Origin: Methylomonas rapida
GTDB taxonomy: Bacteria > Pseudomonadota > Gammaproteobacteria > Methylococcales > Methylomonadaceae
DNA: 64,000 nt
Reading direction: 5' to 3'
NCBI RefSeq assembly: GCF_024360925.2
Contig: NZ_CP113517.1
Span: forward strand, 1,488,001 to 1,552,000
Shown: piece by piece, positions 30,681 to 60,958 of the stretch
Position numbering within the stretch: position 1 is the stretch's first letter
Layout: each line of letters begins with the position of its first letter
Program-made: the position numbers and the translations under genes
Notes under the pieces: generated by a model
The model's input: the letters and a program-made list of their open reading frames with translations, nothing else
What the model was told of the DNA's origin: nothing
The model's database searches: none

Positions 30681-30721
30681 AGCCGTATCACGACAAAGAA
30701 CGAGACAGGAACAAGACAAGC

Positions 30722-41368: not shown

Positions 41369-41912
41369 CGGCGATAGACTATTTTTAATGAAGCCATTCC
41401 ATGTTGATGGATAATTTTGTCGCTTCATTCCCTAACGCAGCAAGGTAGCCTGGGAATAAAGTGAAACCGGATTTGAATACACCGCATCCCTCATGACACA
41501 GCAAAAAGCCAATCGCATTGCGGTATTCGTAGACGCCGAAAATGTTACAAACTGGATCAAGCACGACGGCGTCAGATTACTAATGGAAGAGCTGAATCAG
41601 TATGGCCAGATCATTATCCGTCGCGCCTACGGTGTTTGGAGCAAGCCGAATTTGGCCATGCACCAAGCAGCCATCAACCAATCCGGATTTGAACTCATCC
41701 ATTGCTACCATCCCGTGACCGGCAAGAATACGGCGGATATTCAGATGACGGTGGATGTCATTGAATGCGCTTGGCAACTACCAAACATTAGCTGCTTTGT
41801 GCTGGTTACCGGCGACTCAGACTTTACGCCAGTCTTTCGCCGACTTCGAGAAATGGACAAGGATGTGATGTAAGCGCGTAGCGGTACCACGACCCCAGCT
41901 CGCTGGCAGGAC

Positions 41913-43505
41913 TTAATCGGCGTTAGCAAACGGCAGCAGTTCGTCGATGCGGCTGTTGGGCCAGGTGGGGAGTTTTTCCAGGGTGTCGCTTAGCCAAGCG
42001 GCCGGATCGAGGCCGTTGAGTTTGGCGGTACCGAGCAGGGTTTGAATGACGGCCGCCCGCTGGCCGGCGCGTTCCGAGCCTGCGAACAACCAATTTTTTT
42101 TGCCCAGGGCAATGGGTCGAATGCTGTTCTCGACGGGATTGTTGTCGATGGGCAGATCGCCGGTTTCGGCGTAACGCGTCAGCGCGGGCCAGCGCTTCAG
42201 ACTGTAATCGATGGCTTTGGCGGTTGCGCTGCTGGGCGCCATCAGCAGTCGGGTTTTCTGCAGCCAATCGTGCAGCTCGGTTAAGGCAGGCTGGCTTTTT
42301 TCCGCCCGCAGGCGTTGGCGCTCGTCGCTGCTCATGTCTCGCCCCTCGGCTTCAATGGCATACAGGGCGCCGATACGCTGCAAGGCTGCTTGCGCCACGG
42401 GGCTTTGGCTGGCTTGGAACAGGTCGAAGAACTTTCTGCGCGCATGTGTCCAACACGCCAGTTCGATACACGGTTCAAGCAGAAGTCGGGTTTCCGGGTG
42501 CGCGCGGGCAGTGGCAAACAAGGCCTTATAGCCGCCATAGTCGTCGACCATCAGGTGACCGTGCCAATCTTGTAGAAACTGCTGCGCATGCCGGCCGCTG
42601 CGACCGGCTTGATAGTCGAAGACGATGATCTTGGGGCCCGGTTGCAAGTCGTTGCTGCGGTAGGCCCACAGATAGGCTTTCTTGGTTTTGCCGTTGCCGG
42701 GATCGAGCTGCGGCACCGGGGTTTCATCGGCGTGCAAGCTATCGCGTTGCAATAGATGCCAAGTCAGGCGGTCGGCCAAGGGCAGCAAGGCCACGCCGAT
42801 GCGTCCGACCCAATCGGCCAGGGTGGAGCGGGACAAGATCACGCCATTCCTGGCGGCGATTTGTTCCAGTCGGTACAAGGGCAAATGATCCAGGAATTTA
42901 CTGATCATGACCCAGGTCAGCAAACCGATCGCCGCCATGCCGCCATCGATCACGGCCGGCGGAATCGGCGCTGCCGTGATGGTTTCGCAAGCTCGGCAGG
43001 CGTATTGTGGACGGATGTGGCGATGCACGAAAAACTTGGCCGGCTCTACGTCCAGTTGCTCGGTCACGTCTTCGCCGATCTTGACCAAGTCTTTTCCGCA
43101 TTTTCCGCAGGTACAGGATTCGGGTTCGTGACGGTGTTCGATGCGTGGCAGATGTTCAGGCAAAGGTTGACGACCGGCACGGGGGCGTTTGGGCCGAGTG
43201 ACCGTATCGGATGGGCTGTTGTCCTGTAGTTGCTCGACCTCGGCTTCAATCGCCGACATGTCGGTGTTCCAGGTTTCCTCGAACACATCGCGTTGCAACG
43301 GCGCCAGGGCTTCACTCTTGTGGCTGAAGCGGATGCGCTTGTAATACGCCAATTCGTGCGTCAGCGCGGCGATTTTGGCGTCTTTCTTGGCGATGGTTTG
43401 CGCATCCTGCGCGGCTTGCTCGACCAGCGTCTGAATCATTGCCGTGACGTGGATTTTCGCGGCGGGTTCCAGGTTTAATTGATCGAGTTCGGCCAAGGGA
43501 TTCAT
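41913..43505 (-). CDS. tnpC: IS66 transposase TnpC, copy B
   Basis: This 530-aa transposase is nearly identical to copy A, with the same coiled coil, Cys4 finger (CTCGKCG) and DDE residues. It differs from copy A at a handful of positions (for example DQ to EQ near residue 33 and PNSA to PSSA). Confidence 0.95.
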   Translation of the reverse strand: MNPLAELDQLNLEPAAKIHVTAMIQTLVEQAAQDAQTIAKKDAKIAALTHELAYYKRIRFSHKSEALAPLQRDVFEETWNTDMSAIEAEVEQLQDNSPSDTVTRPKRPRAGRQPLPEHLPRIEHRHEPESCTCGKCGKDLVKIGEDVTEQLDVEPAKFFVHRHIRPQYACRACETITAAPIPPAVIDGGMAAIGLLTWVMISKFLDHLPLYRLEQIAARNGVILSRSTLADWVGRIGVALLPLADRLTWHLLQRDSLHADETPVPQLDPGNGKTKKAYLWAYRSNDLQPGPKIIVFDYQAGRSGRHAQQFLQDWHGHLMVDDYGGYKALFATARAHPETRLLLEPCIELACWTHARRKFFDLFQASQSPVAQAALQRIGALYAIEAEGRDMSSDERQRLRAEKSQPALTELHDWLQKTRLLMAPSSATAKAIDYSLKRWPALTRYAETGDLPIDNNPVENSIRPIALGKKNWLFAGSERAGQRAAVIQTLLGTAKLNGLDPAAWLSDTLEKLPTWPNSRIDELLPFANAD

Positions 43506-43591
43506 GGGGTTTATTATACCCTATGAATCCCCTGAATGCCTTGATATTATTGGGTTTTGCCGGATTTTAGAGCCTCTTTTTCAGCCTCATT

Positions 43592-43942
43592 TTAAACCTG
43601 CCATTCGGCTTTGGGGACGGCTGATAACCGCTGCCAGTCGACACCGGCCACTAACCAGTGCCATTGAGTCTGGCTGAGCGCAAATACCGCATCATGGGTC
43701 TTGGGCCAGACAAAGCTGCCCTGATGCAATCGGCGTTGACACAACCAGACGCCATTGCCATCCCACAGCAACAAGCGCAAGCGATTACCCGCTCGATTGC
43801 GGAAGATGAAAGCCGAGCCGGCGCAAGGTGCATGCCCCAAGCTGTGCTGCACGAGGGCCGACAAACCATCCAGGCCGCGCCGCATGTCCACCGGCGCCAC
43901 GGCAATCCAAATCTGCGCTGGATAACCGATCAGGCCAGGCAT
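43592..43942 (-). CDS. tnpB: IS66 accessory protein TnpB, copy B
   Basis: This 116-aa IS66 Orf2 protein (VDMRRGLDGLSALVQ) differs slightly from copy A near the middle (WPKTHDAVFALSQTQ). It overlaps tnpA by 13 bp. Confidence 0.93.
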   Translation of the reverse strand: MPGLIGYPAQIWIAVAPVDMRRGLDGLSALVQHSLGHAPCAGSAFIFRNRAGNRLRLLLWDGNGVWLCQRRLHQGSFVWPKTHDAVFALSQTQWHWLVAGVDWQRLSAVPKAEWQV

Positions 43943-44223
43943 CGCAGCAACTCCGCCACCCAGCGCGCTGATACCGAAGCAGGCAGCGCCAAGCGATGGC
44001 CTTGGACATGGGTAAAGAGAATGCCCGCATCGACGGGCTCAGAGGGTGAAACCTGCACGGGTATCAAGACTACCGAATCGGATTGGGATAATTTGCGATA
44101 GTCGCTCAGTCGTGCCGCGAACGTGCGAACATTGATCTGCTGCGCTGCGCAATACTCGGCTTGCGACAGTCCACTGCGTTGCCACGCTTCAATATGCTGA
44201 CGCCATTTCGATGTGATGGCCAT
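43930..44223 (-). CDS. tnpA: IS66 accessory protein TnpA, copy B
   Basis: This 97-aa HTH protein equals copy A over the N terminus (WRQHIEAWQRSGLSQAEYCA) and differs in the middle (SQSDSVVLIPVQVSPSE), where copies A and B have diverged most. Confidence 0.9.
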   Translation of the reverse strand: MAITSKWRQHIEAWQRSGLSQAEYCAAQQINVRTFAARLSDYRKLSQSDSVVLIPVQVSPSEPVDAGILFTHVQGHRLALPASVSARWVAELLRCLA

Positions 44224-45263
44224 ACCTGCTCCTGTTCAAAAAATCACAGGATGCCGTAGGACGAATGTTTTTCACAGGTGGGACGGCTGGGCGCTTACGA
44301 TGTGATTGGCGTTGGCCAGCATTCAACCTTGAGCGAATGTGTAAAGACGTCTTGCACTCGATTCATTTATACGGACGATGTCATTAACACGTTAGCCGGT
44401 AAAAAGGTCACGCCACTAGCGCCCCTACCTCCGCAGCCATTACCGAGTTCCCCACCGACGCTTACGCTTGCACAGGCCGATGCGTTAGTCATTGCCCACT
44501 TGAAAGCATCACCTGCGCCGATCAATACCTCTCAAATCAAAAATTTTCTCAAGCAGAATGCGGCAGACTTTGACGAAAAGCATTACGGATTTAAAACATT
44601 TACCGATTACCTAATTGCTAACAAGGCCATTGAAATCAGCAAAAGCGGCACGATTAATTTCGCCCGTTTGGCTAAGCCTGCCCAGCCAACCAAAACAGTT
44701 AAAGTCGTTGCAACTGCGGAAGCCTACAAAGCCCTGCTGAAAAAGCACAATTCACTGCCAGACAATGCCGACACGCTGAAAAAAATTTACAAACACGCCG
44801 TTGCCTTGAAAGACATCTGCCCCGATCCAGCACAATTCAGAGCGGCCTTATTCGATCTGTGTCATAAGGTTGATGCGAGCATTACTAAAACGACCGTGAA
44901 CAAGGCATTTTCCTATTTTATTGTCATGGGCCTGGTTCATACCGAAAAGGCTAAAGGTGGCGTCGATACCGTGCGTGTGAAAAAAATCACACTCAAGGAT
45001 TTTTTATTGAAATCCGACAAGTTGGTCATCGCCAAACTGCTGGAACTTGGCAAAACTCAGGCCTTGGACTTGAAAGCCAAGGAAATCAAGAAAATCACGC
45101 TGTCAACGATCAGTAAAGACAGCATCAAAAAATTGATTGGAGAATAAGACACCATAAACCGGCCGATCATTGATCCTGCGACTCAACGTACGCGAAGCGT
45201 TGTGCTACCAATCCGACACATTAGCAAGCGGAACCATCAAACCTATTTCATTCGGATTAGCGG

Positions 45264-45950
45264 TCATAGCGCACCGGTCTTATTCGAACTTAGGGATGAT
45301 TCATTGTCATCCACCACTGAATCCTCATCTTCCGAAAGCCTCGCTGGCTCATCCAACAGTCCTGACTCCTGCCGGGCCAATCGTACTTCCTCCCCATGCC
45401 CTTGTTCATACGCTGCTTGATGCGCATGTCTTTCCATCGTCACAATTTTATTGGCTAGTCGCTGCAATCGCTGCTGCCACTCCAGGCGCGCGGCAATGCA
45501 GTGTTTGTTGGAGATGACCTGGCACAGCCACAAGGTGTCCATCACGATCATCAACTGATCCAGCAAACGAATCAACTCGACGAATTGTGCAATCTGCGGC
45601 GAGGCGATCTTCGCCACAAACTCCCTGGGGTGAGTGTAGGTCGGCGTTTCATTGATGCCGTTGTCAGCCTTGAGTTTTTCCAGCCGACTTTTTTCCTGCT
45701 GCAGCTGCTCCGCGCATTCGGCAATCATCTGACTGACGAGGCTTTCGATTTCGTCAACGGTGTCCTCCCGACCAATGATGCGCAGGATTACGTCGATCGC
45801 ATACAAGGACACCATCAGCCGGTGATAGCTGTTGCGAATCACCCTAATAGCTTGTTCGCTGTTGATGCTAAACGTGCGCTCAAATATCGGCCGACTTATG
45901 GCGCGACGCGAGGCTGGTTTGGGTTGTGGAGCTATTTCGGACATGAGCAT
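45264..45950 (-). CDS. AcaB-like / TIGR03761-type ICE protein, copy 2 (intact)
   Basis: This 228-aa protein resembles the PFL_4669/TIGR03761 family of integrating-conjugative-element proteins (AcaB-like regulators): IFERTFSINSEQAIRVIRNSYHRLMVSLYAID, then a charged helical middle and LIRLLDQLMIVMDTLWLC. The C terminus is acidic. It is transcribed away from the ssb module and converges with the NYN gene. Fragments of a second copy lie at 32735 and 38988, so copies flank the WYL-TPR-NYN segment in direct orientation. Confidence 0.65.
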   Translation of the reverse strand: MLMSEIAPQPKPASRRAISRPIFERTFSINSEQAIRVIRNSYHRLMVSLYAIDVILRIIGREDTVDEIESLVSQMIAECAEQLQQEKSRLEKLKADNGINETPTYTHPREFVAKIASPQIAQFVELIRLLDQLMIVMDTLWLCQVISNKHCIAARLEWQQRLQRLANKIVTMERHAHQAAYEQGHGEEVRLARQESGLLDEPARLSEDEDSVVDDNESSLSSNKTGAL

Positions 45951-46144
45951 TTCCTGATGTGGACGAATGGTTCATGATCGTATGCCAAATTCTTTAAAGC
46001 CTTTCCGCAGACGACGGCGAATTCGTCATCAGCTGCAAGCACACTTCAAAAAATCTCTGCTTCAATAGCCGCCAATGGAATCGGTTGGCCGTCAGCCAGC
46101 CTTTTCTTCCCAGACTTTCTTGGCTGGTCTTTCATGATCACCTT
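45951..46144 (+). promoter_or_regulatory. Upstream region of ssb with imperfect inverted repeat shared with traL
   Basis: The segment around 46006-46050 (TTCCGCAGACGACGGCG, then AATTCGTCATCAGCTGC) matches the perfect inverted repeat upstream of traL, including the downstream CAC...TTCAAA. It is a candidate binding site for an element-encoded activator or repressor that coordinates the two operons. Divergent promoters for the acaB-like gene and ssb must also lie here. Confidence 0.45.
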
Positions 46145-46225
46145 GATCCGACTTCGGTCGGCGTTCCGTTTTTAAGCGGCGACGGTGGATTTCCATCGGC
46201 GTGTCAGGTGCGTCAAGCCTGATGT
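46145..46225 (+). ncRNA. Structured RNA candidate, copy 1 (5' of ssb)
   Basis: Stems: H1 CCGAC-TTCG-GTCGG (46148-46161), H2 CCGTT-TTTA-AGCGG (46166-46179), a variable hairpin GGTGGA/TCCATC, and H3 TCAGG-9 nt-CCTGA (46204-46222). The H3 loop is TGCGTCAAG. The same order, loops and linkers recur at 49571 and 54520 with paired base changes. It lies about 130 nt before the ssb start. Confidence 0.7.
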
Positions 46226-46356
46226 GACTATTGATTGTGTTTACCCTGCCGGGCTTCTCGATTCCCGTGGGGATTCAGCGTGCCGGCATGTCCATCGCCG
46301 CGCCGCTGGGTATTGTTATCGTTGAGTCGGGCGCGGCCGACAGGAGGAATGTCATC

Positions 46357-46788
46357 ATGGCCAATCGCGGTGTGAACAAAGTCATCTTGCTGGGCCGGCT
46401 CGGCGCCGATCCGGATGTTCGCTTTATGCCCGATAACGGCGGCAAAGTAGTCGCCGTCCGTTTGGCAACCAGTGAAGTCTGGAACGATCCCAAAAACGGC
46501 AAACAGGAGCGGACCGAATGGCATCGAGTGGTGTTTTTCAAAAAACTCGCCGATACCGCCGAACAGTATTTGCATAAAGGCAGCCAGATCTACATCGAAG
46601 GCCGTTTGCGTACCCAGCAATGGGGCCAAGCAAATGACAAGCGTTACCGTACCGAAATCGCCGCCTTTGAATTGCAGTTGCTGGATCGCCCAAATGCATC
46701 GGCAGCCGCCAACGGTTCGTCATCATCGCCAGCGACGCCCGAGGACGCCGATTGGGATGACGACTACAGCGATATGCCCATCCATTAA
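46357..46788 (+). CDS. ssb: Single-stranded DNA-binding protein
   Basis: This 143-aa SSB has the OB-fold N terminus [22 protein letters not shown] and [18 protein letters not shown], a short linker, and an acidic tail ending [10 protein letters not shown], a variant of the usual DDDIPF interaction tip. The ATG at 46357 is set by AGGAGG ten bases upstream; longer in-frame starts are in the leader. It protects transferred single strands and works with the Bet/Exo pair downstream. Confidence 0.95.
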
Positions 46789-46865
46789 AACCTGGATCGC
46801 CGATTATTGGCGTTCATTGGATAAACGGTTACACCGCCGACCCGTTTCCGGTTTCGGTATTTCAA

Positions 46866-46913
46866 CCCCCTGGGGAACTCCATTCCCCGGCGGGCGATGG
46901 CGTTCCCTTTTTT
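46866..46913 (+). promoter_or_regulatory. Alternative-pairing leader hairpin of bet
   Basis: GGGGAA (46872-46877) can pair with TTCCCC (46883-46888). Alternatively GGGAAC (46873-46878) can pair with GTTCCC (46902-46907), which is directly followed by TTTTTT (46908-46913) and AAGGAG. The two folds exclude each other. Confidence 0.55.
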
Positions 46914-46930
46914 ATTGAAGGAGACCCACC

Positions 46931-47980
46931 ATGAGCCAAAACAACCGCAACACCTTACCCAAAACCCGTGACTTACCGATGCCAGCTGTTGTTCAGCAAA
47001 GCTACGGCCTGTCGGAACAGTCCTGGAAAGTATTAACCGAAGTCACCTTTCCGACTGCCAAAACCCCGGAAGCGATCCTGATGGCGCTGGATTATTGCAA
47101 GGCCCGCAAGCTCGACATCTTCAAAAAGCCGGTGCATATCGTGCCGATGTGGAGCGCGGCTTTAGGCCGTAATGTCGAAACCGTCTGGCCGTCCATTATG
47201 GAAATCCAGACCACCGCATCACGGACCGGTGTTTGGGCCGGCATGGATAGACCCGTCTGGGGCCCGGATGTCACCAAAACCTTTACCGGTCGCTACAAGG
47301 ACGACAACGAGCAATGGCAGGAATCCAGCGTCACTGTGACCTTTCCCGAATGGGTGGCGGTTACTGTGTACCGGATCGTCGGCGGCAAACGCTGCGCCTT
47401 TACCGAGGAAGTCTACTGGCTAGAGGCTTATAGCACGGCAGGCGGTAAAAACTCGCAAGTGCCGACCGCGATGTGGATCAAACGCCCCAAGGGGCAATTG
47501 GCCAAATGCGGTAAAGCGGCGTCCTTGCGCGCAGCCTTTCCTGAGGAATGCGGTTATGCCGCCGAGGAAATGGATGGCAAAACGCTCGATGATGTTGTCG
47601 ACGGTTCGGTGATCGATGGCGAGGCGACACATTGGGAAACCGATGTTGGCCAAGCGGGTGATTGGTTTTCCGGATCATCCGAGCAAACGCCGCACGTGAT
47701 CGACGTGTCGCAAATCCATCCCAAGGTGCAAAAAGCCGTCGCCGAGCTGGTACGTCGTACAGCGGCAGCCGGTGCCTGGAAAGCAGCCTACGACTATGCC
47801 AACCAAAAGTTCAAAGGCATCGACCTGACCTTTGCATTGGCCGAGCTAGACAAGGTATCGGAGGTTGATCCCATGGCATCATCAGCCTTAGTTAAAACGG
47901 ACAGTACCGGCATGCCGCCATTGTCCGCGAAAGACATGGCCATGAATCAGGCCCGTCAAACCTTGGGGCACGCAGCTTAG
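46931..47980 (+). CDS. bet: RecT/Bet-family single-strand annealing protein
   Basis: This 349-aa Redbeta/RecT protein has ALDYCKARKLDIFKKPVHIVPM, TVWPSIMEIQTTASRTGVWAG and WIKRPKGQLAKCGKAASLRAAFPEE, the conserved Bet core. It anneals complementary single strands and, with the exonuclease encoded 430 bp downstream, forms a phage-type recombination pair as in SXT. The C-terminal region is variable. The AAGGAG site lies seven bases before the ATG. Confidence 0.95.
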   Translation: MSQNNRNTLPKTRDLPMPAVVQQSYGLSEQSWKVLTEVTFPTAKTPEAILMALDYCKARKLDIFKKPVHIVPMWSAALGRNVETVWPSIMEIQTTASRTGVWAGMDRPVWGPDVTKTFTGRYKDDNEQWQESSVTVTFPEWVAVTVYRIVGGKRCAFTEEVYWLEAYSTAGGKNSQVPTAMWIKRPKGQLAKCGKAASLRAAFPEECGYAAEEMDGKTLDDVVDGSVIDGEATHWETDVGQAGDWFSGSSEQTPHVIDVSQIHPKVQKAVAELVRRTAAAGAWKAAYDYANQKFKGIDLTFALAELDKVSEVDPMASSALVKTDSTGMPPLSAKDMAMNQARQTLGHAA

Positions 47981-48014
47981 AAGCGCTGCAATCCCAAATT
48001 CTTTAACCACCCAC

Positions 48015-48064
48015 AAGGGCGTCCTGTTTCGCCCACGGGGTAGGACATGACGCTCTTGGTTTTT
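48015..48064 (+). promoter_or_regulatory. Alternative-pairing leader hairpin before the 111-aa gene
   Basis: GGGCG/CGCCC (48017-48021 with 48030-48034) competes with AAGGGCGTC/GACGCTCTT (48015-48023 with 48049-48057, one G-T pair), followed by a T-run and then the AGGAGAGG ribosome-binding site. Confidence 0.55.
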
Positions 48065-48077
48065 ATCAGGAGAGGTC

Positions 48078-48413
48078 ATGAACACAAACGATCAATCATT
48101 AAACCGCGTGCCCTGTCATACCGACTGGCAACGTTACGATTCACCCACGGTGTTACGCCGTCACGGCCGAGGTTTTCTGGAACGCCTGTGGCGACCCCAG
48201 TGCAACGAACCCAATCCGCAGCCCTTAAGCCAGCCAGAACTAACAACACTGGCCGAGAGTTTTGGCGGGGTGTGTTTGCCGGCGCAAGACGAACTGCTGT
48301 TGCTGTTTGGCGATGGCCATTGGGCCCGGCGTTGCCAGAACCAGTTGCACAAGCTCGGCATCGAGACGGTACGCTTCGGCTGCCAGGTGCAGTTGACCGG
48401 ATTTTCGCGATGA
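48078..48413 (+). CDS. Unknown 111-aa protein between bet and exo
   Basis: I recognise no family. The protein is soluble and basic in the middle (RRHGRGFLERLWRPQ), with a hydrophobic C-terminal half (LLLLFGDGHWARRCQNQL). Small genes of unknown function sit between bet and exo in SXT-like elements. Its stop overlaps the exo start (ATGA at 48410-48413), so exo translation is coupled to it. The start has AGGAGAGG upstream. Confidence 0.7.
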   Translation: MNTNDQSLNRVPCHTDWQRYDSPTVLRRHGRGFLERLWRPQCNEPNPQPLSQPELTTLAESFGGVCLPAQDELLLLFGDGHWARRCQNQLHKLGIETVRFGCQVQLTGFSR

Positions 48414-49411
48414 AGGTCATCGACGTTTCGCAACGTTCCGACGTATGGCGGCATTGGCGATTACAAGGCGTCAGTGCCAGTGAAGCGGCCATCGTCATGA
48501 ATCGCTCGCCCTACAAAAGCCATTGGCGGCTCTGGGCCGAGAAAATTGGCTTGGTACTGGAAGCCAGTCTGGACAACAACCCGTTGATCCGCGCTGGTAT
48601 CCAGCAGGAGCCTGAAGCTTTGCAACGCTTCGAGGATAAACACGATCTGATGTTGTTGCCGCTGTGCGGCGAGTCGGAACAGTATCCGTTGATGCGGGCT
48701 TCTTTCGACGGCTTATCCGACGCGAATGAGCCAGTGGAAATCAAATGTCCGCACGAAACCACGTTTTTGGATGTGCTGTTAAACCGGGAAGCCTCGGCTG
48801 CCTATCAGTTGTATTGGTGCCAGGTGCAACAGCAACTGCTGGTATCCGAAGCGCAACGCGGCTTTTTGTTTTTCTATCACCAAGGCCAGGACATCGAGTT
48901 TGAAATTCAGCGCGATGAGATTTTTCTCACCCAGCTGGTCGATAAAGCGATGGATTTCTGGTCGGCGGTCAAATCGAAAAAGGAACCACAAAAGGATCCC
49001 GAACGCGATTTGTATTTGCCGCAAGGTGAGTCGGAACGGCAATGGCAACAACTGGCGGCGACGTATCGGCAACGGGCGTTGACCATCTTGGACATCAAAA
49101 GCCAACTCAACCAGTTGGAGGACGAGCAGTCGCGCATTGAAGACACCTTAGTGACATTGATGGGCGATTACGTAGCTGCGGAGCATTCCGGGTTACGGAT
49201 CAGCCGGTTTCAAAGCCAGGGTGCTATCGATTACAAGGCGGCACTGCAAGCCTTGCAACCGGATGTTCAGGCTGGGGCGCTGGACGTCTATCGAAAACCG
49301 TCGGCCATGCGGGTCCGGGTGACCTGCCGGGACGACGACGGTAAACATGCCGAAGTGCCGTTCGATGCCCAAGCCTTGAAAGACTTGGCGGGTGTGGACT
49401 TTTGGTTTTGA
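48410..49411 (+). CDS. exo: YqaJ/lambda-Exo-like recombination exonuclease
   Basis: This 333-aa nuclease has the YqaJ fold: GVSASEAAIVMNRSPYKS, the GxxxEPEAL-type glutamate in GIQQEPEALQRFE, the metal site D in MRASFDGLSD with E-x-K in EPVEIKCP, and YWCQVQQQLLVSE. It degrades 5' strands to produce 3' overhangs for the annealing protein. A longer in-frame start exists, but the ATG at 48410 overlaps the upstream stop and is preferred. Confidence 0.92.
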   Translation: MKVIDVSQRSDVWRHWRLQGVSASEAAIVMNRSPYKSHWRLWAEKIGLVLEASLDNNPLIRAGIQQEPEALQRFEDKHDLMLLPLCGESEQYPLMRASFDGLSDANEPVEIKCPHETTFLDVLLNREASAAYQLYWCQVQQQLLVSEAQRGFLFFYHQGQDIEFEIQRDEIFLTQLVDKAMDFWSAVKSKKEPQKDPERDLYLPQGESERQWQQLAATYRQRALTILDIKSQLNQLEDEQSRIEDTLVTLMGDYVAAEHSGLRISRFQSQGAIDYKAALQALQPDVQAGALDVYRKPSAMRVRVTCRDDDGKHAEVPFDAQALKDLAGVDFWF

Positions 49412-49570
49412 TGGTTCGTTTCAAGACATCCTGTAATCCTAGTGGTTACGGGATGTTCATTCATTGACGGCATGATTGATTCGGTTAGGGCATGTCGGTT
49501 TTAGGCTGGGCTTTCCCGCAAAACCCAACCCAAAACCCGCATCGTTCAGGCATTCCCTTCGTGGAATCCC
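49412..49570 (+). terminator. Gene-end hairpin after exo
   Basis: CATCCTGTAA (49427-49436) pairs with TTACGGGATG (49446-49455) around a 9-nt loop, shortly after the exo stop. It may end the ssb-bet-exo transcript before the second structured RNA copy. There is no long T-run. Confidence 0.4.
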
Positions 49571-49650
49571 GAATCCGGTTTCGACCGGCGTTCCGTTGTT
49601 AAGCGGCATGAGCGTTTGCCTCGTGTGCCAGGTGCGTCAAGCCTGGTGTG
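49571..49650 (+). ncRNA. Structured RNA candidate, copy 2
   Basis: Stems: H1 CCGGT-TTCG-ACCGG (49575-49588), H2 CCGTT-GTTA-AGCGG (49593-49606), and H3 CCAGG-TGCGTCAAG-CCTGG (49628-49646). Relative to copy 1, H1 and H3 change on both strands and keep pairing. Confidence 0.7.
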
Positions 49651-49658
49651 TTTAGTTT

Positions 49659-49704
49659 GTCCCGTTGGGGTTCATCACCTTTACGGGACTCGATGACCCC
49701 TTTT
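49659..49704 (+). promoter_or_regulatory. Leader hairpin or pseudoknot before the 70-aa gene
   Basis: GTCCCGT (49659-49665) pairs with ACGGGAC (49683-49689). GGGGTTCATC (49667-49676) pairs with GATGACCCC (49692-49700), with one bulge. The strands are interleaved, so both together would be an H-type pseudoknot; otherwise they exclude each other. TTTT and AAGGAGG follow. Confidence 0.55.
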
Positions 49705-49724
49705 ATTCATTGAAGGAGGTCATC

Positions 49725-49937
49725 ATGAATCACGACTTTTGGAAAACCTTGCATGGCTGGTTGAACGTTGCCCATAGCGACGACATTCAGGCCAAAAAGC
49801 GTGTGCTGCTGGAGATGCATCGTCAAATCTCGGACCCCGGTTTGAGAAGCGACATTCAGCGTATCCTGCGCTTGATGGATCGGGAGTTGTTGGCCCGTGC
49901 CGAATGGGCGATGTACTGCGTCATGCAGTTGCGCTAG
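49725..49937 (+). CDS. Unknown 70-aa protein
   Basis: This small helical, mildly basic protein (MNHDFWKTLHGWLNVAHS; LLEMHRQISDPGLRSDIQRILRLMDRELLARAEW) belongs to no family I recognise. GGAGG lies directly upstream of the ATG at 49725. It opens the cobS-cobT transcription unit and lies after the second structured RNA copy. Confidence 0.65.
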   Translation: MNHDFWKTLHGWLNVAHSDDIQAKKRVLLEMHRQISDPGLRSDIQRILRLMDRELLARAEWAMYCVMQLR

Positions 49938-49951
49938 CCATTTTCTATTTA

Positions 49952-50015
49952 CCCTGGTTTGCCAGGGTTTTAATCACCCGTTGGGGCTCATTACCCCTCG
50001 GGGCTGGTGCGCCCC
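49952..50015 (+). promoter_or_regulatory. Terminator-like stem plus leader hairpin before cobS
   Basis: CCCTGG-TTTG-CCAGGG-TTTT (49952-49971) looks like an intrinsic terminator just after the 70-aa gene. Then GGGG (49983-49986) can pair with CCCC (49994-49997), or GGGGC (49983-49987 or 50000-50004) with GCCCC (50011-50015). The ribosome-binding site GAGGAG overlaps a CCTCGAGG palindrome (50034-50041). Confidence 0.5.
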
Positions 50016-50049
50016 TTGTCATTTGAGGCTAGTCCTCGAGGAGCTCACC

Positions 50050-50853
50050 ATGTACCAACAATATTCCATTGCCGACACCTTCGGCATTCAGGCCCCGTCG
50101 TCCATGAAAGTGGAAGGTTTTGTACCCGCCGGACAAAACACCTATGTACCGGCACAAAAGCCGTACGTGTTTCGCAAGGATCACTTGCGCGATGTGTTGG
50201 CGTTTTTAGGCGCAGCCAATGGCGACGGCTTATACCTGTCCGGTCCTACCGGTTCCGGTAAAACCTCATTGTTGGAGCAAGTCGCGGCGCGTCTCCATTG
50301 GGGCGTGCATTCCGTCACCGGTCACGGTCGATTGGAACTCAACGATCTGCTCGGCCAGTACATGCTGGTCGACGGCGGCGCGATGAAGTGGATTGATGGT
50401 CCGTTGACCTTGGCTGTTCGCCTGGGACATGTGCTGTTGATCAACGAAATCGATGCCATTGATCCTGCCGAGCTGATTGGCTTGAATGAAATCGTCGAAG
50501 GGAAACCTTTAACGATTCCGCAAACCGGCGATGTGATTACGCCGCATCCTAAGTTTCGTTTGGTCGCCACCGGCAATAGTGCCGGATCGGGTGATCAGTC
50601 GGGCTTGTACCAAGGGGTGTTACGTCAAAACCTGGCGTTTTTGGATCGTTTTAGGCTGATGGAAGTCGGCTACCCCGAACCCGAAGACGAAATGAAGCTA
50701 TTGGCCGATGTGGTGCCGACCATGCCGGAAACGGTACGCGAAAGTATGATCAAAGTCGCCAATCAGATTCGTAAAGTCTTTATCGGCGGTGCGGATGGCG
50801 GTGGCATGTTATCGGTGACTGATCTTGCTCGTGTTTCACAGACAGATAGCTAA
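50050..50853 (+). pseudogene. cobS: CobS-like AAA ATPase (MoxR class), 3' end lost to IS3
   Basis: The gene encodes an N-terminal region, YLSGPTGSGKTSLLEQVAARL (Walker A, near residue 65), LLINEIDAIDPAEL (Walker B) and RLVATGNSAGSGDQSG (sensor). This matches the CobS-like ATPase that pairs with a VWA CobT-like partner in SXT-type elements. At about codon 257 the frame enters the IS3 element and stops, so the AAA lid domain is missing. Joining the IS flanks does not restore a lid-containing frame, so flanking DNA has probably been deleted. Confidence 0.8.
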
Positions 50854-51710
50854 GAGACATGTTTAAGTTCAAAGGCTTCAGGGGATAGATAGCCCAATTT
50901 GGAATGAAGCCGTTTGCGATTGTAATACACTTCGATGTATTCGAAGACATGTTGCTTGGCGTCGGCTCGTGTTGATAGCCGCTCACCATGAATGGCTTCG
51001 ACCTTGAAGCTGTGGTTCCAGCTTTCCATGGCGGCGTTATCGTAGCAATCGCCTTTCTTGCTCATGCTACAAATCAATTGGTGTTGTTTGAGCAAGGCTT
51101 GATAGGCTGCTGAACAATACTGGCTGCCTCGATCCGAATGGACGATAACGTCTTTGGGTAATTTTCGCCGCCACAGCGCCATGGTCAAAGCATCGCAAAC
51201 CAGGCTGGCAGTCATGCGTTCAGCCATGGCCCAACCAATGACCTTGCGTGAATACAACTCCAAGACGACGGCTAGATAAAGCCAACCCTCGTCCGTCCAG
51301 ATATAGGTAATGTCTGAGACCCATTTCTGATCGGGCGCCGTCGCTCCAAAATCTTGAGCCAAGTGGTTGGGGGCTACGGGCAAGTTGTGATTGCTGTTGG
51401 TTGTAGCCTTGTATTTCCGTGCGGCCTTGGCCCGCCAACCCTTGGACTTCATGATCTTGGCCACGGTATGACGGCTGACGCGATGGCCTTCATCGTTGAG
51501 TCGCTTGGTTATTCGGGGCGAACCGGCACGCGCTTTTTCATCATCGAATACCCGTTTGATCTCATCGGCCATGGCTTCTTGCGATTGCGCTCTTGGCGAG
51601 GGCGGACGCTTTTTCCACTGATAATAGCCGCTGCGCGAAACTTTAAAACAGCGACACATCAGCTTGACGGAAAATTCAGATTCAAGGGATTGCATCATGG
51701 CGTACTTCAC
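50850..51710 (-). CDS. IS3-family transposase OrfB
   Basis: This 286-aa protein has an N-terminal HTH_21 region (MCRCFKVSRSGYYQW) and rve core: WVSDITYI, VIVHSDRGSQYCS and the catalytic glutamate in NAAMESWNHSFKVE. It is probably made as an OrfAB fusion by -1 frameshifting at an A6G run (51740-51746, read on the minus strand) in orfA. Confidence 0.93.
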   Translation of the reverse strand: MKYAMMQSLESEFSVKLMCRCFKVSRSGYYQWKKRPPSPRAQSQEAMADEIKRVFDDEKARAGSPRITKRLNDEGHRVSRHTVAKIMKSKGWRAKAARKYKATTNSNHNLPVAPNHLAQDFGATAPDQKWVSDITYIWTDEGWLYLAVVLELYSRKVIGWAMAERMTASLVCDALTMALWRRKLPKDVIVHSDRGSQYCSAAYQALLKQHQLICSMSKKGDCYDNAAMESWNHSFKVEAIHGERLSTRADAKQHVFEYIEVYYNRKRLHSKLGYLSPEAFELKHVS

Positions 51711-52018
51711 CGGGGCTGCTTGGCAAAGTACGCTGCCGCCTTTTTTAAAAAGGCGACTTCCTCTTCCAGGCGTGCATTTTCCCGTTTAAGCCGTGCGATT
51801 TCAGCTTGTTGCAGTTTTTGCTCTTCAAAGGGCTGACCGGTTTGGCGGCTTTTGGCTTGCCAGCTATACAGCATGGCTTGCGCAATTCCCAAATCTTTGG
51901 CTGCTTTTGAGACACCGTCTTGCTTTGCTCGCTCCAAGGCTTGCTCTTTAAACTGAGACGTATATTTGTTGCGTTTAGACTTTGTAGCGATAGTCGCTGG
52001 TTGATCGTTGTTTTTCAT
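51707..52018 (-). CDS. IS3-family transposase OrfA
   Basis: This 103-aa HTH_Tnp_1 protein (YTSQFKEQALERAKQDG; AAKDLGIAQAMLYSWQ) has a C-terminal leucine zipper (QQAEIARLKRENARLEEEVAFL). The zipper runs into the AAAAAAG frameshift site that connects to OrfB. Confidence 0.92.
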   Translation of the reverse strand: MKNNDQPATIATKSKRNKYTSQFKEQALERAKQDGVSKAAKDLGIAQAMLYSWQAKSRQTGQPFEEQKLQQAEIARLKRENARLEEEVAFLKKAAAYFAKQPR

Positions 52019-52076
52019 AAGACTCCTCAGGCATAGAGATTACTCTCTTAACTGGGTGTCTGTGAAATTTGGGCAA

Positions 52077-52464
52077 GATCAGTGAAGGCTTGTTGGTTAA
52101 TCAAACACCCGTGTTTGAAGAGACAGACGTTGATGAAACCTTCGAATACGCGGATTTAGAGCTATCAACGGTACCAACAGAAACAACAGTCTCAACCGAA
52201 GCAAAACCCGTCATCGCTGAATGCGTTTCAGACAATTCCGATTTTACCGATCTGTTTGACGGGATCTTTGATGATGAATTGGACGCGGAATCGGCATCGG
52301 ATGACTGGGCGCTTGAAGTCTTGCTGGACAAAAGCCAGACCAATCTGGAAACCGGTAACGATGCCGATCGAGCCAATGATTTGGAAAACGCAGCGAAACC
52401 GGAACCGGTGACGGCAGGAGACGATGAGGAGGCGGACGATTCCGACCAGGATTACTGGTTCTGA
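52077..52464 (+). pseudogene. Acidic C-terminal fragment downstream of the IS3 element
   Basis: A frame open from the IS end encodes about 128 residues, strongly acidic and without a start codon of its own (SEGLLVNQTPVFEETDVDE ... EEADDSDQDYWF). It has no catalytic motif. It may be the tail of the original cobS gene product or of a separate gene whose beginning was removed with the cobS 3' end. Confidence 0.5.
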
Positions 52465-52492
52465 TCCTACGCCATTTAACACTTCACCCACT

Positions 52493-52538
52493 GGGGCAAA
52501 TTCATGTCCCGCTGGGGCCGTGGTTTGCCCCAACTTTT
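52493..52538 (+). promoter_or_regulatory. Leader hairpin of cobT
   Basis: GGGGCAAA (52493-52500) pairs with TTTGCCCC (52524-52531) and is followed by AACTTTTGGAG. An inner CCC/GGG pairing (52508-52516) and an alternative GGGG/CCC pairing are possible. Confidence 0.5.
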
Positions 52539-52548
52539 GGAGCACACC

Positions 52549-54369
52549 ATGAAAAATAGAACCTTACACAACGCATTTCCCATCGTTGCGGCGGCCATTG
52601 GCAATCGCTTTGGCGTCAAAGTCAGTGTCGGCGGTGATAAAGCCGAAACCGATGGCCAAACCATTTGGCTGCCGGCCTATGAGGGCGACGATGCGGATTA
52701 TCAGGATTACGCCTGGGGCCTGTTGGCCCACGAAGCGGCGCATATTCGCTATTCGGATTTTACGCTGCGCTATGGCAGTTCGGTCTTACGTCGGCGTTTA
52801 TGCAATGCCATCGAAGATGTTCGCATTGAGCACGAACTGGCCAAGGACTTTCCGGGTACCCGGCTGACTATCCGCACCGTAATTGAAAAGATGATTGCCA
52901 AAGGCGACTTTGTGGCCGCCAGTGAAAGCGATCATCCGGCCAACATTTTGTATGGATTCGTGTTGAAAAGCTTGCGTGCACGGGTACTGGGTCAAACGGC
53001 CCTATTACCGTTGGTCGAACAAACCGAAGCGGCATTGAAGTCAGCGTTTCCGAAAGGAACCGTAACGCGGTTGAAAGGCTTGCTGTCGGAAGTCCCGAAG
53101 TGCTTGCAATCGGAGAGTGATTGCCTGCAGTTGACTGATCGCATCCTGACCATGATTGAGCAGGAATTCGAGCAACAACGGCAGCGTCATCAGGCACAGC
53201 CATCGGAAGATGAGGAAAACTCGCCTGAGCCGGATGATGCGGATCAGGATGCTGAATCAACCGATTCGGACGATTCGAATGGCCAGATTTCCCAGGATGA
53301 CATGGAGCCCGATGAACGATTGCCCAACGACACTGCAGACGATCCGTCTTCAGCATCCGATGGTGACGATGATTCGAATCCCAAAAATCCTGACGATGAA
53401 CTGGCAACGCCATCCGACAGTTCGACATCCGACCCGCAAGGTGAAGATGAGGAAAATGCTGAGATTGCCGACCCGATGGGCGTCTTGCAAACCCTGTTGT
53501 CCGCCGAAGACACTGACATCGAGCAGGATCTGTTTGAGTCGCTGAAATCGGCGTTGTCGTTAGCGGCAGAAAACTTATCGGAACTGCTGATGCCCAGTGG
53601 CCTCGAACCGCCCATGGACGAACGAGCCGGTGTGATTTTACTGCGCAAGGTGCAAGGCGAATCGGGAAAAATCCGCGCCGCTTTGCAAGGCATCGTGCAA
53701 TCGCAAACCATGAGCCGCACGAAACATGCCTGTCGTGGCCGGCGGCTGGATGGCAAGCGTTTGCATCGGCTGCCCTTGGGTGAAACCAAGCTGTTTCAGC
53801 GCAAGCAGGCCAAATCGGCCCCCAATACGGCCATTCATCTGTTACTCGATAAATCCGAAAGCATGGGGTATCAGGTCACCGATAGCCAAGGCAACCCGAT
53901 GGGATCGCGGATGCCGATTGCATTGGAAGCCACCTTGGCACTGGCGTTGGCCTTTGAAGGTATACCCGGAGTCAATCCTGGCGTCACCGCGTTTCCAGGG
54001 CGTCAGGACGATTCGGTCTATAGCTTGCTGGAACATGGTCAACGTGTGAATGCTCGAACCGGTGCCTTTTCGGTAGCCGCCGCCGGCAGTACACCAATGA
54101 CTGAAGCGATTTGGTTTGGTGTGGCGTCACTGCTGCGATGCCGGGAACCGCGCAAAGTGTTGATGGTGATGACCGATGGTCAGCCCAACGAGTCACTGAG
54201 CACACTGGAGTTGTTGCAGCGCTGCCGCGATAGCGGTATTGAAACCGTCGGTGTGGGGTTGGGACTGGATGTCAGTCATCTCTTCCCGGTTGCCATCACC
54301 ATCAACGATCTATCGGAGCTGAGAGCGCAATTGTTCGAGCTCTCGAAATCGTTGTTGTTGGCGGCGTAA
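52549..54369 (+). CDS. cobT: CobT-like VWA-domain protein
   Basis: This 606-aa protein has an N-terminal metalloprotease-like HEAAH motif (near residue 62; LLAHEAAHIRYSDF), a long acidic low-complexity region (about 217-305, rich in D, E and S), and a C-terminal von Willebrand A domain with MIDAS IHLLLDKSESMG (about 427) and MVMTDGQPNES. Such proteins pair with MoxR/CobS-like ATPases as a chelatase-type remodelling machine; here the ATPase gene is broken. The role in conjugative elements is unknown. Confidence 0.88.
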   Translation: MKNRTLHNAFPIVAAAIGNRFGVKVSVGGDKAETDGQTIWLPAYEGDDADYQDYAWGLLAHEAAHIRYSDFTLRYGSSVLRRRLCNAIEDVRIEHELAKDFPGTRLTIRTVIEKMIAKGDFVAASESDHPANILYGFVLKSLRARVLGQTALLPLVEQTEAALKSAFPKGTVTRLKGLLSEVPKCLQSESDCLQLTDRILTMIEQEFEQQRQRHQAQPSEDEENSPEPDDADQDAESTDSDDSNGQISQDDMEPDERLPNDTADDPSSASDGDDDSNPKNPDDELATPSDSSTSDPQGEDEENAEIADPMGVLQTLLSAEDTDIEQDLFESLKSALSLAAENLSELLMPSGLEPPMDERAGVILLRKVQGESGKIRAALQGIVQSQTMSRTKHACRGRRLDGKRLHRLPLGETKLFQRKQAKSAPNTAIHLLLDKSESMGYQVTDSQGNPMGSRMPIALEATLALALAFEGIPGVNPGVTAFPGRQDDSVYSLLEHGQRVNARTGAFSVAAAGSTPMTEAIWFGVASLLRCREPRKVLMVMTDGQPNESLSTLELLQRCRDSGIETVGVGLGLDVSHLFPVAITINDLSELRAQLFELSKSLLLAA

Positions 54370-54519
54370 TCCTCAGTCCGTTATCCGTAGCCCAATCCTT
54401 GGCTTAATGCCTTGGATTATGGCTACGGGTAGCTGATTGCAACCGCAGTTTGTCGAATGCACTCAAATCCTGGAGTCCATTCGACAAACAGACATTTCAT
54501 GCGTTCTTTCCAGAATGCT
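54370..54519 (+). terminator. Two strong hairpins after cobT
   Basis: CCGTAGCC (54385-54392) with GGCTACGG (54421-54428), extended by AATCC/GGATT, forms one hairpin. TTTGTCGAATG (54449-54459) with CATTCGACAAA (54478-54488) forms a perfect 11-bp second one. They probably terminate the cobS-cobT transcript or protect its 3' end; no long T-run follows. Confidence 0.5.
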
Positions 54520-54602
54520 GAATCCGACTTCGGTCGGCGTTCCGCCTTTAGGCGGCGAGCACGTTAAACCGTGATCGTGTCGGGTGCGTTAAGCCCGATG
54601 TA
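54520..54602 (+). ncRNA. Structured RNA candidate, copy 3
   Basis: Stems: H1 CCGAC-TTCG-GTCGG (54524-54537), H2 CCGCC-TTTA-GGCGG (54542-54555), a variable CACG/CGTG hairpin, and H3 TCGGG-TGCGTTAAG-CCCGA (54580-54598). H2 and H3 differ from the other copies by paired changes. Confidence 0.7.
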
Positions 54603-54714
54603 AAGCGCAGTGGAATTCTCTGCTGCAAATCTAAAACCCGCTTCGGGCGACCATCGCCCGGCCGGGTGCTGTTCATTCGAAGTGTTTTCGTTAATTTTTG
54701 CTAGGAGAACTTCA

Positions 54715-55251
54715 ATGAACTTTATTTTTGGTGTCATCTTACTGGCTATGTTTATCCTCGCCTTGCGTGTGATTTGGGCAACAGTATTGCAACTGCTGAG
54801 CTCATTGAAACAATCGGCTCAAGTGTTGCACCGCTATCGTGCACAGCGATTGGCGCGGAACCGGCTACCGGTGATTATGCCACGTAGCCGCGAGGAGATG
54901 GATTGGTTGGCAATATCGGATTCGGTGCGCCAGGAAATTCAGAGTCGTAATCGTGAAACAAATCGCGAGTTGGAGCGATTGGAACTTCAATATCAAGCCA
55001 AACAGAAAACAATCAAACTCTACGAGGCGGATATTGAAATCGCCAAACTGGAGCGGGAGCTATTGAAAATCAAACCGATGACTGTTGCGGTCGAAATCGA
55101 GCCTAAACCGCGTCGGCGTACAAAAAAAGCGACCGGGCCAACCATGGTGGACGACAAGTCCGCTAAAACTGCCCAACAAGTATTTCAATTGCGGGAAGCG
55201 CTGAAAGGTAACGCCAACGCGTTAACGATTAATCAGCAAGCCCGCCATTGA
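54715..55251 (+). CDS. Unknown membrane-anchored coiled-coil protein
   Basis: This 178-aa protein has one N-terminal transmembrane helix (MNFIFGVILLAMFILALRVI) and a long charged coiled coil (about 75-125; RNRETNRELERLELQYQAKQ), then a basic tail. I recognise no family. AGGAG precedes the ATG at 54715. It lies after the third structured RNA copy. Its 3' end overlaps the convergent gene at 55229 by 23 bp. Confidence 0.7.
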   Translation: MNFIFGVILLAMFILALRVIWATVLQLLSSLKQSAQVLHRYRAQRLARNRLPVIMPRSREEMDWLAISDSVRQEIQSRNRETNRELERLELQYQAKQKTIKLYEADIEIAKLERELLKIKPMTVAVEIEPKPRRRTKKATGPTMVDDKSAKTAQQVFQLREALKGNANALTINQQARH

Positions 55252-55606
55252 ATACCCGCAACGTGGTTCCGGTTGCCGTATTGATACGGCGAACTGGAAT
55301 CTCGTGTTGATTCGATTCATCAGCAAACACCCAGCTGCCTTCGGGCAATAGCGACAACAAATCGTTCTGGGTTTCCCGGCGAATTTGTCGAATCTTGTTT
55401 AGAAACGGCCAGGCTTGCTCTGGATTATCAACCCGCTTGAGCACGTCGGCTTCTAAAACATCCAATTTTTGGAAAATTTGTTGGCAATGTCGAACGACTT
55501 TCAATGGTTCGTCGACCGGAATCGCCATCGGTTTTCGCCTTGGATATGGCTCCTCTGTCCGCTTAGTACTGAGGAAATCAAAAATGCGCAAAATATCGTC
55601 GAACAT
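55229..55606 (-). CDS. Unknown 125-aa protein on the opposite strand
   Basis: This is the only minus-strand candidate within the ssb-radC module. The frame encodes a coherent mixed alpha/beta protein (MFDDILRIFDFLSTKRTEE; VVRHCQQIFQKLDVLEADVLKRV; GSWVFADESNQHEIPVRRI), and no real plus-strand gene covers it. The ribosome-binding site is weak. I recognise no family. Confidence 0.5.
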   Translation of the reverse strand: MFDDILRIFDFLSTKRTEEPYPRRKPMAIPVDEPLKVVRHCQQIFQKLDVLEADVLKRVDNPEQAWPFLNKIRQIRRETQNDLLSLLPEGSWVFADESNQHEIPVRRINTATGTTLRVFNGGLAD

Positions 55607-55715
55607 GGCAATTTCTCTGCTTTTTAATGAGTTTTAGTCACCATATACCGATTTTTACGCGAATTCAACCCCGCTGCATGAGCCGATTTTAGGCTTTAAT
55701 CAGCGTTTTTTACCT

Positions 55716-55757
55716 GCAGGAACACCATCCTGCCGGGTGGTAGTTCCTGCGTTTTTT
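55716..55757 (+). promoter_or_regulatory. Alternative-pairing leader hairpin before the zinc-ribbon gene
   Basis: GCAGGA (55716-55721) pairs with TCCTGC (55728-55733). Alternatively GCAGGAAC (55716-55723) pairs perfectly with GTTCCTGC (55743-55750), which runs into TTTTTT (55752-55757) and GGAGGA. The 8-bp fold is terminator-like; the 6-bp fold prevents it. Confidence 0.6.
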
Positions 55758-55770
55758 GGAGGACATGACC

Positions 55771-56448: not shown

Positions 56449-56511
56449 GAAGCGCTATTTGGAAAAACCTGAGCTAGCCAAGTCATTTGATTCGGCGCTC
56501 ATTTTTATCCA

Positions 56512-56565
56512 CCCACACGGGAATGTCCTATTCCCGCTGGGGAATCGTGATGTTTCCGTTTTTTT
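56512..56565 (+). promoter_or_regulatory. Alternative-pairing leader hairpin before the 165-aa gene
   Basis: CGGGAAT (56518-56524) pairs with ATTCCCG (56530-56536). Alternatively CGGGAA, or a second GGGGAA at 56539-56544, pairs with TTTCC(G) (56553-56558), followed by a T7 run and GAGGA. Confidence 0.55.
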
Positions 56566-56577
56566 GAGGACAACATC

Positions 56578-58984: not shown

Positions 58985-59057
58985 ACTGGCCTAGCCAGTA
59001 CTACCCGCCTCGGGGAGATGATCCGTTCTCCCTGTCGGGGTTGGACTGTGTCGTGTC
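58985..59057 (+). promoter_or_regulatory. Leader hairpins before the GHKL ATPase gene
   Basis: ACTGGC-CTA-GCCAGT (58985-58999), GGGAGA/TCTCCC (59013-59018 with 59027-59032) and GGAC/GTCC (59043-59046 with 59054-59057) lie between the methyltransferase gene and the GAGGA site at 59076. Confidence 0.5.
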
Positions 59058-59086
59058 CTCGGGGCTTTATTATTTGAGGAACTCAC

Positions 59087-60957: not shown

Positions 60958-60958
60958 C

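Follow-up and report, generated by a model that had tools for sequence, protein, structure and literature searches.

The window analyzed here is a stretch of 64,000 nucleotides from Methylomonas rapida (contig NZ_CP113517.1, positions 1,488,001 to 1,552,000, forward strand). It holds parts of an F-type conjugative element, with genes for TraE, TraU, SSB, RecT/Bet, a YqaJ exonuclease, a CobS-like AAA protein, CobT/VWA and RadC. Within this region lie three copies of a putative leader element of approximately 100 nt, which is made of five hairpins (HP0 to HP4). An initial annotation of the window had reported three copies with a common order, spacing and set of loops, placed 5′ of ssb, of a 70-aa gene followed by cobS, and of a 178-aa gene. 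On rechecking the sequence, all three copies were found at these places on the + strand with the described stems, loops and spacings. Each is matched by a covariance model (R2, see below), and the same genes lie downstream in relatives. The coordinates are collected in Table 1.

Read from 5′ to 3′, the element consists of HP0, HP1 with a free loop, the linker CGTT, HP2, HP3 with a free sequence, and HP4 with the loop TGCGTNAA. HP0 was overlooked in the initial annotation and stands directly 5′ of the array described there. It is kept in many relatives with changing stems (examples are GCGTTCT/AGAATGC, GTTGTCT/AGACAAC and TTTAGCGTT/AACGCTGAA; our simple finder chose another or a shifted stem in some sequences). 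TTCG, which had been taken for the constant loop of HP1, occurs in 30 of 86 parsed sequences. The near-constant unpaired parts are the linker (79 of 86) and the loop of HP4 (85 of 86), figures that are conditional, as the parser required a linker and a loop close to these. A 17-letter core pattern, GTTCCGNNNTTARGCGG, has three mismatch-free matches in the window, which are the three copies. With up to three mismatches, it has 20 matches, compared with a mean of 10 in shuffled sequences.

The R2 model was built from 12 copies (three from the window and nine from sister elements) and has 24 pairs; a wider model, R3, was built from 65 sequences. The sequences collected comprised 111 distinct stretches, of which 100 were parsed and 11 (truncated or weak matches) were not, with 87 distinct cores. 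Removal of one weak core (L147) gave 86 for the tree and strand counts, and 79 distinct sequences remained for the tree test after trimming. On 63 distinct sequences, 96.5% of the cells are paired, compared with 29–48% when the partners are slid; these figures lean towards structure because the alignment was fitted to the model. Both sides change in 16 of the 24 pairs on the same 63 sequences, which bears out the covariation that had been claimed. To call it strong evidence on the basis of three copies was an overstatement, because 3 of the 24 pairs are significant (E < 0.05) once shared ancestry is allowed for. For this tree-aware null, Fitch changes were re-placed on a FastTree tree of the 79 sequences in 300 simulations, using our own implementation. 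Two of the significant pairs are in HP3 and one is in HP4, and none falls off the structure. The remaining 21 stem pairs are not significant, several of them because they never vary. HP3, described before as a variable stem, does vary, yet it carries two of the three tree-significant pairs. The four core stems, read in the mRNA sense, contain 133 G·U pairs and 12 A·C (a single HP2 position contributes 52 of the G·U cells), and this excess points to the mRNA-sense strand as the folding strand. The folding energy of the + strand alone is weak (z = −0.6, −2.4 and −2.4 for copies 1, 2 and 3).

The folding strand bears on an alternative in which the repeats act as single-stranded DNA, that is, as a priming site, a single-strand origin or a Frpo-like promoter on entry into the recipient. 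The genes for SSB and recombination are typical early genes after transfer. F and ColIb-P9 have repeated structured elements (Frpo/ssi) before ssb-type early genes, and the arrangement here, with three repeats ahead of genes of this kind, is reminiscent of ssi in ColIb-P9. In copy 3, the − strand also folds as well as the + strand (z = −2.8). In a Frpo-type promoter, however, the folded structure forms in the template (transferred) strand, and the HP0–HP4 element folds in the mRNA-sense strand; folding in the template strand would turn the 133 G·U pairs into C·A mismatches, against 12 the other way. A Frpo-type promoter was rejected on this count, which does not bear on a priming site on the mRNA-sense strand. 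The array is moreover followed by leaders with Shine–Dalgarno hairpins. As a whole, a single-stranded DNA element seems quite improbable to us.

The earlier statement that the element resembles no described RNA agrees with Rfam 15, which at the gathering cut-off gave no match in the window or in six related loci. Three matches at E 5–8 between positions 44000 and 57000 do not fall on the leader elements. A literature search by title and abstract, which covered few subscription papers, found no description of the element in methanotrophs, conjugative elements, IncC or SXT/R391. In PMC2864571, Methylobacterium-1 and STAXI are named, which are Rfam families or are described as pseudoknots. STAXI is likewise a repeated structured motif that is often found near genes for single-strand-binding protein and other mobile-DNA handling functions (PMC2864571); it is a tandem pseudoknot, whereas each leader here has a single five-hairpin array without an Rfam match at the gathering level. 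A coding sequence was rejected, without a formal coding test, as the HP1 loop and HP3 show length differences that three does not divide. A leader peptide starting from the frequent TTCATG before HP0 would open a frame in some copies only, and it was dropped because the frames, compared by eye, differ between gene positions and the lengths vary by one or two bases. The best reading is a structured leader RNA family that has no Rfam match and is thus new to Rfam.

The core pattern has 12 exact matches in the single-contig genome of 4.59 Mb, which fall into four related conjugative elements with three matches apiece. Downstream of each match lies one of three recurring gene contexts: ssb, the 70-aa gene before cobS, and the 178-aa gene after cobT. 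In the fourth sister element (genome positions 3083497–3135872), copies 2 and 3 are approximately 49 kb apart, compared with 5–8 kb elsewhere, and a large insertion therefore probably lies between them. Plasmid NZ_CP014361 of Methylomonas sp. DH-1 also has three copies. Within the family, R2 at E ≤ 0.1 matched 25 of 201 genomes; within the order, R3 at E ≤ 0.01 matched 38 of 301 genomes, representing 14 of 50 genera and two families. In a class sample of 369 genomes, R2 returned the genome itself and six weak matches. R3 returned 9 of 398 genomes in a phylum sample, namely the genome itself and eight others at E 0.0016–0.0064, where about four matches are expected by nominal E and the E-values are rough. 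Of the 14 weak loci from the class and phylum samples, 13 were inspected, and not one combines the linker with the HP4 loop.

A pattern scan yielded 100 stretches from genome contigs and two from viral contigs. When R2 was run on 100 of these 102 loci (L197 and L198 were left out), 71 matched: 66 scored at least 33 bits (two of these are cut by the locus end) and five scored below 20 bits; the two viral contigs failed. Titles are known for 80 of the 100 genome loci. Confirmed loci with titles belong to Methylomonas, Methylovulum, Methylobacter, Methylomicrobium, Methylocaldum and uncultured Methylococcaceae. Others come from metagenome-assembled genomes (MAGs): a gammaproteobacterial MAG (L117, L170), one titled Methyloversatilis (L171) and one of Geobacteraceae (L178). 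The L171 copy is identical letter for letter to that of G623, a genome placed in the window's order, and the L178 copy is identical to one on a Methylobacter contig. In the second family, eight genomes have an R3 match. All six stretches examined there have a cobS relative (66–74% identical) 0.6–1.2 kb downstream on the same strand, which is the place of copy 2. In the IncC, Marinobacter, Providencia, Thiomicrorhabdus and P. alcaligenes plasmids, HP0–HP4 gave only weak R2 or R3 matches; the best of these (Providencia, E = 0.088, directly behind exo) is a terminator-like hairpin by eye and was set aside.

Such a distribution makes it very hard to regard the copies as functionless, that is, as a duplicated repeat sharing mere ancestry. 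Tree-aware covariation confined to three pairs, and the close relationship of copies from one genome, would fit that view. It is opposed by the 14 genera and two families, by the shared gene place in the six second-family stretches, and by a linker and loop that stay constant while the stems change. The outcomes that had been named beforehand as telling against the element did not occur: homologs stand before the same genes, the wider alignment still covaries, and Rfam has no match.

On the upstream side, six copies of the Methylomonas-plasmid type located upstream of bet, representing about three distinct sequences, have a TATAAA/TATAAC box 9–12 bases before HP0. Located 17 bases upstream of the TATAA box is CCACTTCCAC in five copies and CCTCTTCCAC in one. 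The promoter-like pair C(A/T)CTTCCAC and TATAAA/TATAAC precedes HP0 upstream of bet in plasmids L061 (11815–11892) and L062 (11690–11768). From the distance between box and HP0, transcripts at these copies should start just 5′ of HP0. At most copies of the other two gene places stands a palindrome with T-rich and A-rich ends, hairpin A, whose arms vary between relatives yet remain largely complementary (the finder chose another stem in several relatives). A row of hairpins in line at the presumed 5′ end, with hairpin A before copies 2 and 3, could also serve mRNA stability or processing; the 5′ hairpins would then shield the block transcripts, and hairpin A would mark a processing site. A mere stabilizer, however, needs no near-constant loop and linker, and we consider this role improbable.

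On the downstream side, the stretch from HP4 to the start codon varies with gene position in length and structure among the leaders listed, whereas HP0–HP4 is constant. Many of these leaders contain an additional hairpin as well as HP6 (CCCG..GGGG..CCCC..CGGG) and a hairpin masking the Shine–Dalgarno sequence. The flanks of the masking hairpin change together (CGTTC/GAACG, TGACC/GGTCA, GAAGT/ACTTC, GTGC/GCAC and CGTATCTCC/GGAGATACG). A similar arrangement of four segments precedes many genes between bet and radC. In this switch, segment 3 has two alternative partners: segment 1, which imitates the ribosome site, and segment 4, which is the Shine–Dalgarno itself. A T-run often follows. Folded up to the Shine–Dalgarno, 15 of 16 modules form the 1:3 hairpin, the exception being the 70-aa module; the full-length minimum masks the Shine–Dalgarno in 12 of the 16 and keeps 1:3 in four. 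Of 18 hand-picked modules, one was skipped and one could not be located, which left the 16 that were folded; in two of these the forced 1:3 hairpin was out of register and the state was taken from the minimum-energy structure. Compared with shuffled sequences, the 85 bases before the start have z-scores of −1.0 to −4.8 in 11 of 12 genes of the run (ssb, −0.1). The 13 other + strand open reading frame (ORF) starts of the window show no excess structure (z −0.9 to +1.9). In the comparison as a whole, one start (86aa) was three bases off, and the 13 controls are unchecked ORF starts.

Table 1. Leader elements, hairpins, putative switches and first genes in the window (window coordinates).
Feature	Position	Strand	Remarks
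Leader copy 1	46125–46228	+	5′ of ssb; R2 match 46142–46228, 102.5 bits
Copy 1 hairpins	HP0 46125–46140, HP1 46148–46161, HP2 46166–46179, HP3 46180–46201, HP4 46204–46222	+	
ssb	46357–46788	+	First gene behind copy 1; PF00436, 8.6e-32
Four-segment switch	46866–46930	+	Before bet (recT)
Four-segment switch	48005–48077	+	Before 111-aa ORF upstream of exo
Hairpin A	49497–49537		Upstream of copy 2; palindrome, T-rich 5′ end, A-rich 3′ end
Leader copy 2	49552–49652	+	5′ of 70-aa gene and cobS; R2 match 49569–49652, 93.1 bits
Copy 2 hairpins	HP0 49552–49567, HP1 49575–49588, HP2 49593–49606, HP3 49607–49625, HP4 49628–49646	+	
HP6 and masking hairpin	49659–49724	+	Before 70-aa gene; HP6 49659–49689, hairpin masking Shine–Dalgarno 49692–49724
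70-aa gene	49725–49937	+	First gene behind copy 2
HP6-like hairpin	49977–50049	+	Before cobS; switch less clear, z = −1.0
Four-segment switch	52485–52548	+	Before cobT; 1:3 stem of 11 pairs
Hairpin A	54448–54489		Upstream of copy 3
Leader copy 3	54501–54604	+	5′ of 178-aa gene; R2 match 54518–54604, 107.2 bits
Copy 3 hairpins	HP0 54501–54518, HP1 54524–54537, HP2 54542–54555, HP3 54556–54577, HP4 54580–54598	+	
Four-segment switch	54636–54714	+	Before 178-aa gene
178-aa gene	54715–55251	+	First gene behind copy 3
Four-segment switch	55704–55770	+	Before 225-aa gene
Four-segment switch	56506–56577	+	Before 165-aa gene
Four-segment switch	58996–59086	+	Before 531-aa gene
Four-segment switch	60884–60958	+	Before radC

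The frequency of the switch was compared with a control of 200 kb of chromosome (143 start sites), using simple start-site rules; tra and other genes that have no switch are counted in the element regions, and the sister elements are not independent. A 1:3 stem of at least nine pairs with a T-run was found at 21 of 194 element-region sites and at 1 of 143 control sites (Fisher p = 7e-5), a tally taken from the listing with a cut-off chosen after the run and with sister elements counted separately. The IncC plasmid pP99-018 of Photobacterium also has the switch, without HP0–HP4, at 9 of 28 start sites (p = 1e-4 versus control). It is less clear in the plasmids of P. alcaligenes (6 of 31), Thiomicrorhabdus (3 of 23) and Marinobacter (3 of 33), and none of 16 start sites in the Providencia plasmid has it. 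In an IncC plasmid stretch (NC_008612.1, 58000–80000), the four-segment switch was seen before several genes of the ssb–bet–exo–VWA region, at about 5330–5605 and 10760–10845 of that stretch. A T-run follows segment 3 in 29 of 49 modules of the Methylococcales elements and in 4 of 23 modules of four plasmids without HP0–HP4 (p = 0.001), a contrast of essentially one clade with a few plasmids. In view of this contrast, masking appears to be the feature common to the switches, and terminator-like T-runs appear to be an addition that is frequent where HP0–HP4 is present. A universal terminator reading of the switch was rejected because 20 of the 49 modules have no T-run.

From these patterns in the sequence, we conclude that HP0–HP4 is very probably a cis-acting structured leader RNA, present in front of as many as three gene blocks in the DNA-processing region of such conjugative elements. 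The sequence-level support covers the structure, the folding strand, the position, and switches that would be able to mask the Shine–Dalgarno. Among the mechanisms considered, antitermination of the kind known from Tn916 canT or HK022 put is the likeliest by analogy, and we propose it tentatively. The emerging array would bind the elongating RNA polymerase, and the polymerase so modified would pass the hairpin-plus-T-run signals before many genes of the run. Transcripts from the element's own promoters would then express the ssb–cobS–cobT–radC run, and stray transcripts that read through from elsewhere would terminate or have their start signals masked. As HP0–HP4 is near-constant and the stretch from HP4 to the gene is variable, the array probably acts on something general, for example the transcription complex, and not by refolding one platform; this fits polymerase as the target better than an aptamer bound to a single platform. 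A riboswitch would couple its aptamer to a conserved expression platform. Hairpins that mask the Shine–Dalgarno do occur here, but from HP4 to the start codon conservation is lacking from one gene position to the next. With respect to an antiterminator, which calls for internal intrinsic terminators, a 1:3 stem and T-run stand before many genes, the T-run in the 29 of 49 modules given above.

Antitermination by a cis-acting RNA has been described for phage, for Bacillus operons and for Gram-positive conjugative elements (PMC9378689, PMC11658703, PMC8955417). In Tn916, canT is a proposed cis-acting antiterminator RNA in an operon with internal terminators (PMC11658703). Compared by description, canT, which lies behind the promoter of DNA-processing genes, resembles HP0–HP4 as an RNA of a conjugative element; for HP0–HP4, such a promoter and the operon-internal terminators are putative. 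It differs in being a Gram-positive region of 452 bp whose activity has been shown, whereas HP0–HP4 occurs in up to three copies per element and is known from sequence alone. In pLS20, the RNA part conAn2 of conAn opens a conjugation operon that contains more than 20 internal terminators (PMC8955417). The conAn system acts with the protein ConAn1, whereas no such partner was identified here (no search was aimed at ConAn1), and the putative stop signals of HP0–HP4 elements are fused to Shine–Dalgarno switches. The same source (PMC8955417, 2022) names RfaH/ops as the only processive antitermination known in Gram-negative conjugation operons. RfaH/ops shares with our proposal processive antitermination in Gram-negative conjugative elements; it relies on a host protein that acts in trans, mainly on Rho-dependent termination, whereas HP0–HP4 is an RNA array. 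HK022 put is a hairpin-forming nascent RNA of approximately 70 nt behind an early promoter that suppresses termination (PMC9378689), and it served as the structural model for the proposal.

Several observations weigh against antitermination. The put RNA has two stem-loops, compared with five short hairpins in line over approximately 100 nt. A simple sigma-70-like scan of positions 45900–55300 found no + strand promoter, so the copies of the window could lie inside longer transcripts. With the Shine–Dalgarno masked at full length in 12 of 16 modules, antitermination alone would not yield translation. When stems of at least seven pairs with a T-run are counted, the excess is small (32 of 194 versus 12 of 143 control sites, p = 0.03). 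When Shine–Dalgarno pairing is also required (8+/7+ pairs), it is not significant in the regions of the genome itself (20 of 194 versus 7 of 143, p = 0.10); the same scan found 45 of 230 sites in Methylococcales elements elsewhere (p = 5e-5 versus control). The T-run is missing from 20 of the 49 modules in HP0–HP4-bearing elements, including seven of the nine modules listed for L079, L083 and L084, and the T-run contrast is narrow in its sampling. Finally, the presence of the switch where HP0–HP4 was not found (IncC, P. alcaligenes) makes it independent of the array.

Ranked close behind antitermination, as a possible but rather doubtful mechanism, is control of translation, in which an RNA-binding protein or a small RNA would dock on HP0–HP4 and govern the Shine–Dalgarno switch of the first gene in each block. 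Many of the leaders listed do hold the Shine–Dalgarno in a hairpin beside the start codon, and the constant unpaired linker (GCGTTCC) and HP4 loop resemble binding sites. The switch, however, precedes many genes, also in plasmids without HP0–HP4, and the ssb leader of the window has HP0–HP4 yet no excess start structure. An antisense partner was rejected, as complements of the linker and of the loop occur jointly only at the elements themselves in nine stretches, with single complements elsewhere. The initial annotation had suggested that the RNA may answer to an element-encoded protein; no partner protein emerged, the 70-aa and 178-aa proteins having no Pfam or NCBIfam family match. Translational attenuators of the ermC type have four segments with mutually exclusive pairings around the Shine–Dalgarno. 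In the switch described here, segment 3 is the one that changes partner, between segments 1 and 4, and segment 1 looks like the ribosome site. We noticed no conserved leader peptide, and the arrangement recurs before many genes of the run.

More speculatively, a scheme can be drawn for Gram-negative IncC/SXT-like elements, in which the five-hairpin nascent RNA would make the polymerase terminator-proof where each early block begins, and bistable locks at many of the genes behind it would act as terminators while they are being made and then as Shine–Dalgarno masks. In IncC plasmids, the lock alone would operate under other inputs. We consider this scheme unlikely as it stands.

The nearest plasmid relatives of the conjugative element are four Methylomonas plasmids, and one of two inspected was typed MOBH. 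Over 171 positions, the 178-aa protein shares 33% identity with its counterpart in plasmid pUP202; for the 70-aa protein, BLASTP gave no match to the gene that occupies the corresponding place in that plasmid. IncC plasmids are more distant (CobT relative at 33% identity), and one of them shows the gene order ssb, bet, exo, DUF3150, VWA. The cobS-like gene of the window is split by two ORFs resembling an IS3-type insertion (50850–52018); at the place of this interruption, an AAA family ATPase is annotated in plasmids L061 and L062. Two further segments (41493–41873 and 44278–45147) are by eye the apparent halves of one gene, separated by transposase-like ORFs at 41913–44101. Very large ORFs (934, 1074, 940 and 611 aa) at 16339–32557 have the look of a defense or restriction island inside the conjugative element.

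If the HP0–HP4 element is real, a group of conjugative elements has one more structured RNA family, unmatched in Rfam. This would make it easier to understand how large elements can be silent while in the chromosome and yet express ssb, the recombination genes and the cobS/cobT-like genes block by block. The switch at individual genes, which is also present in an IncC plasmid, would open the post-transcriptional control of such elements to direct tests.

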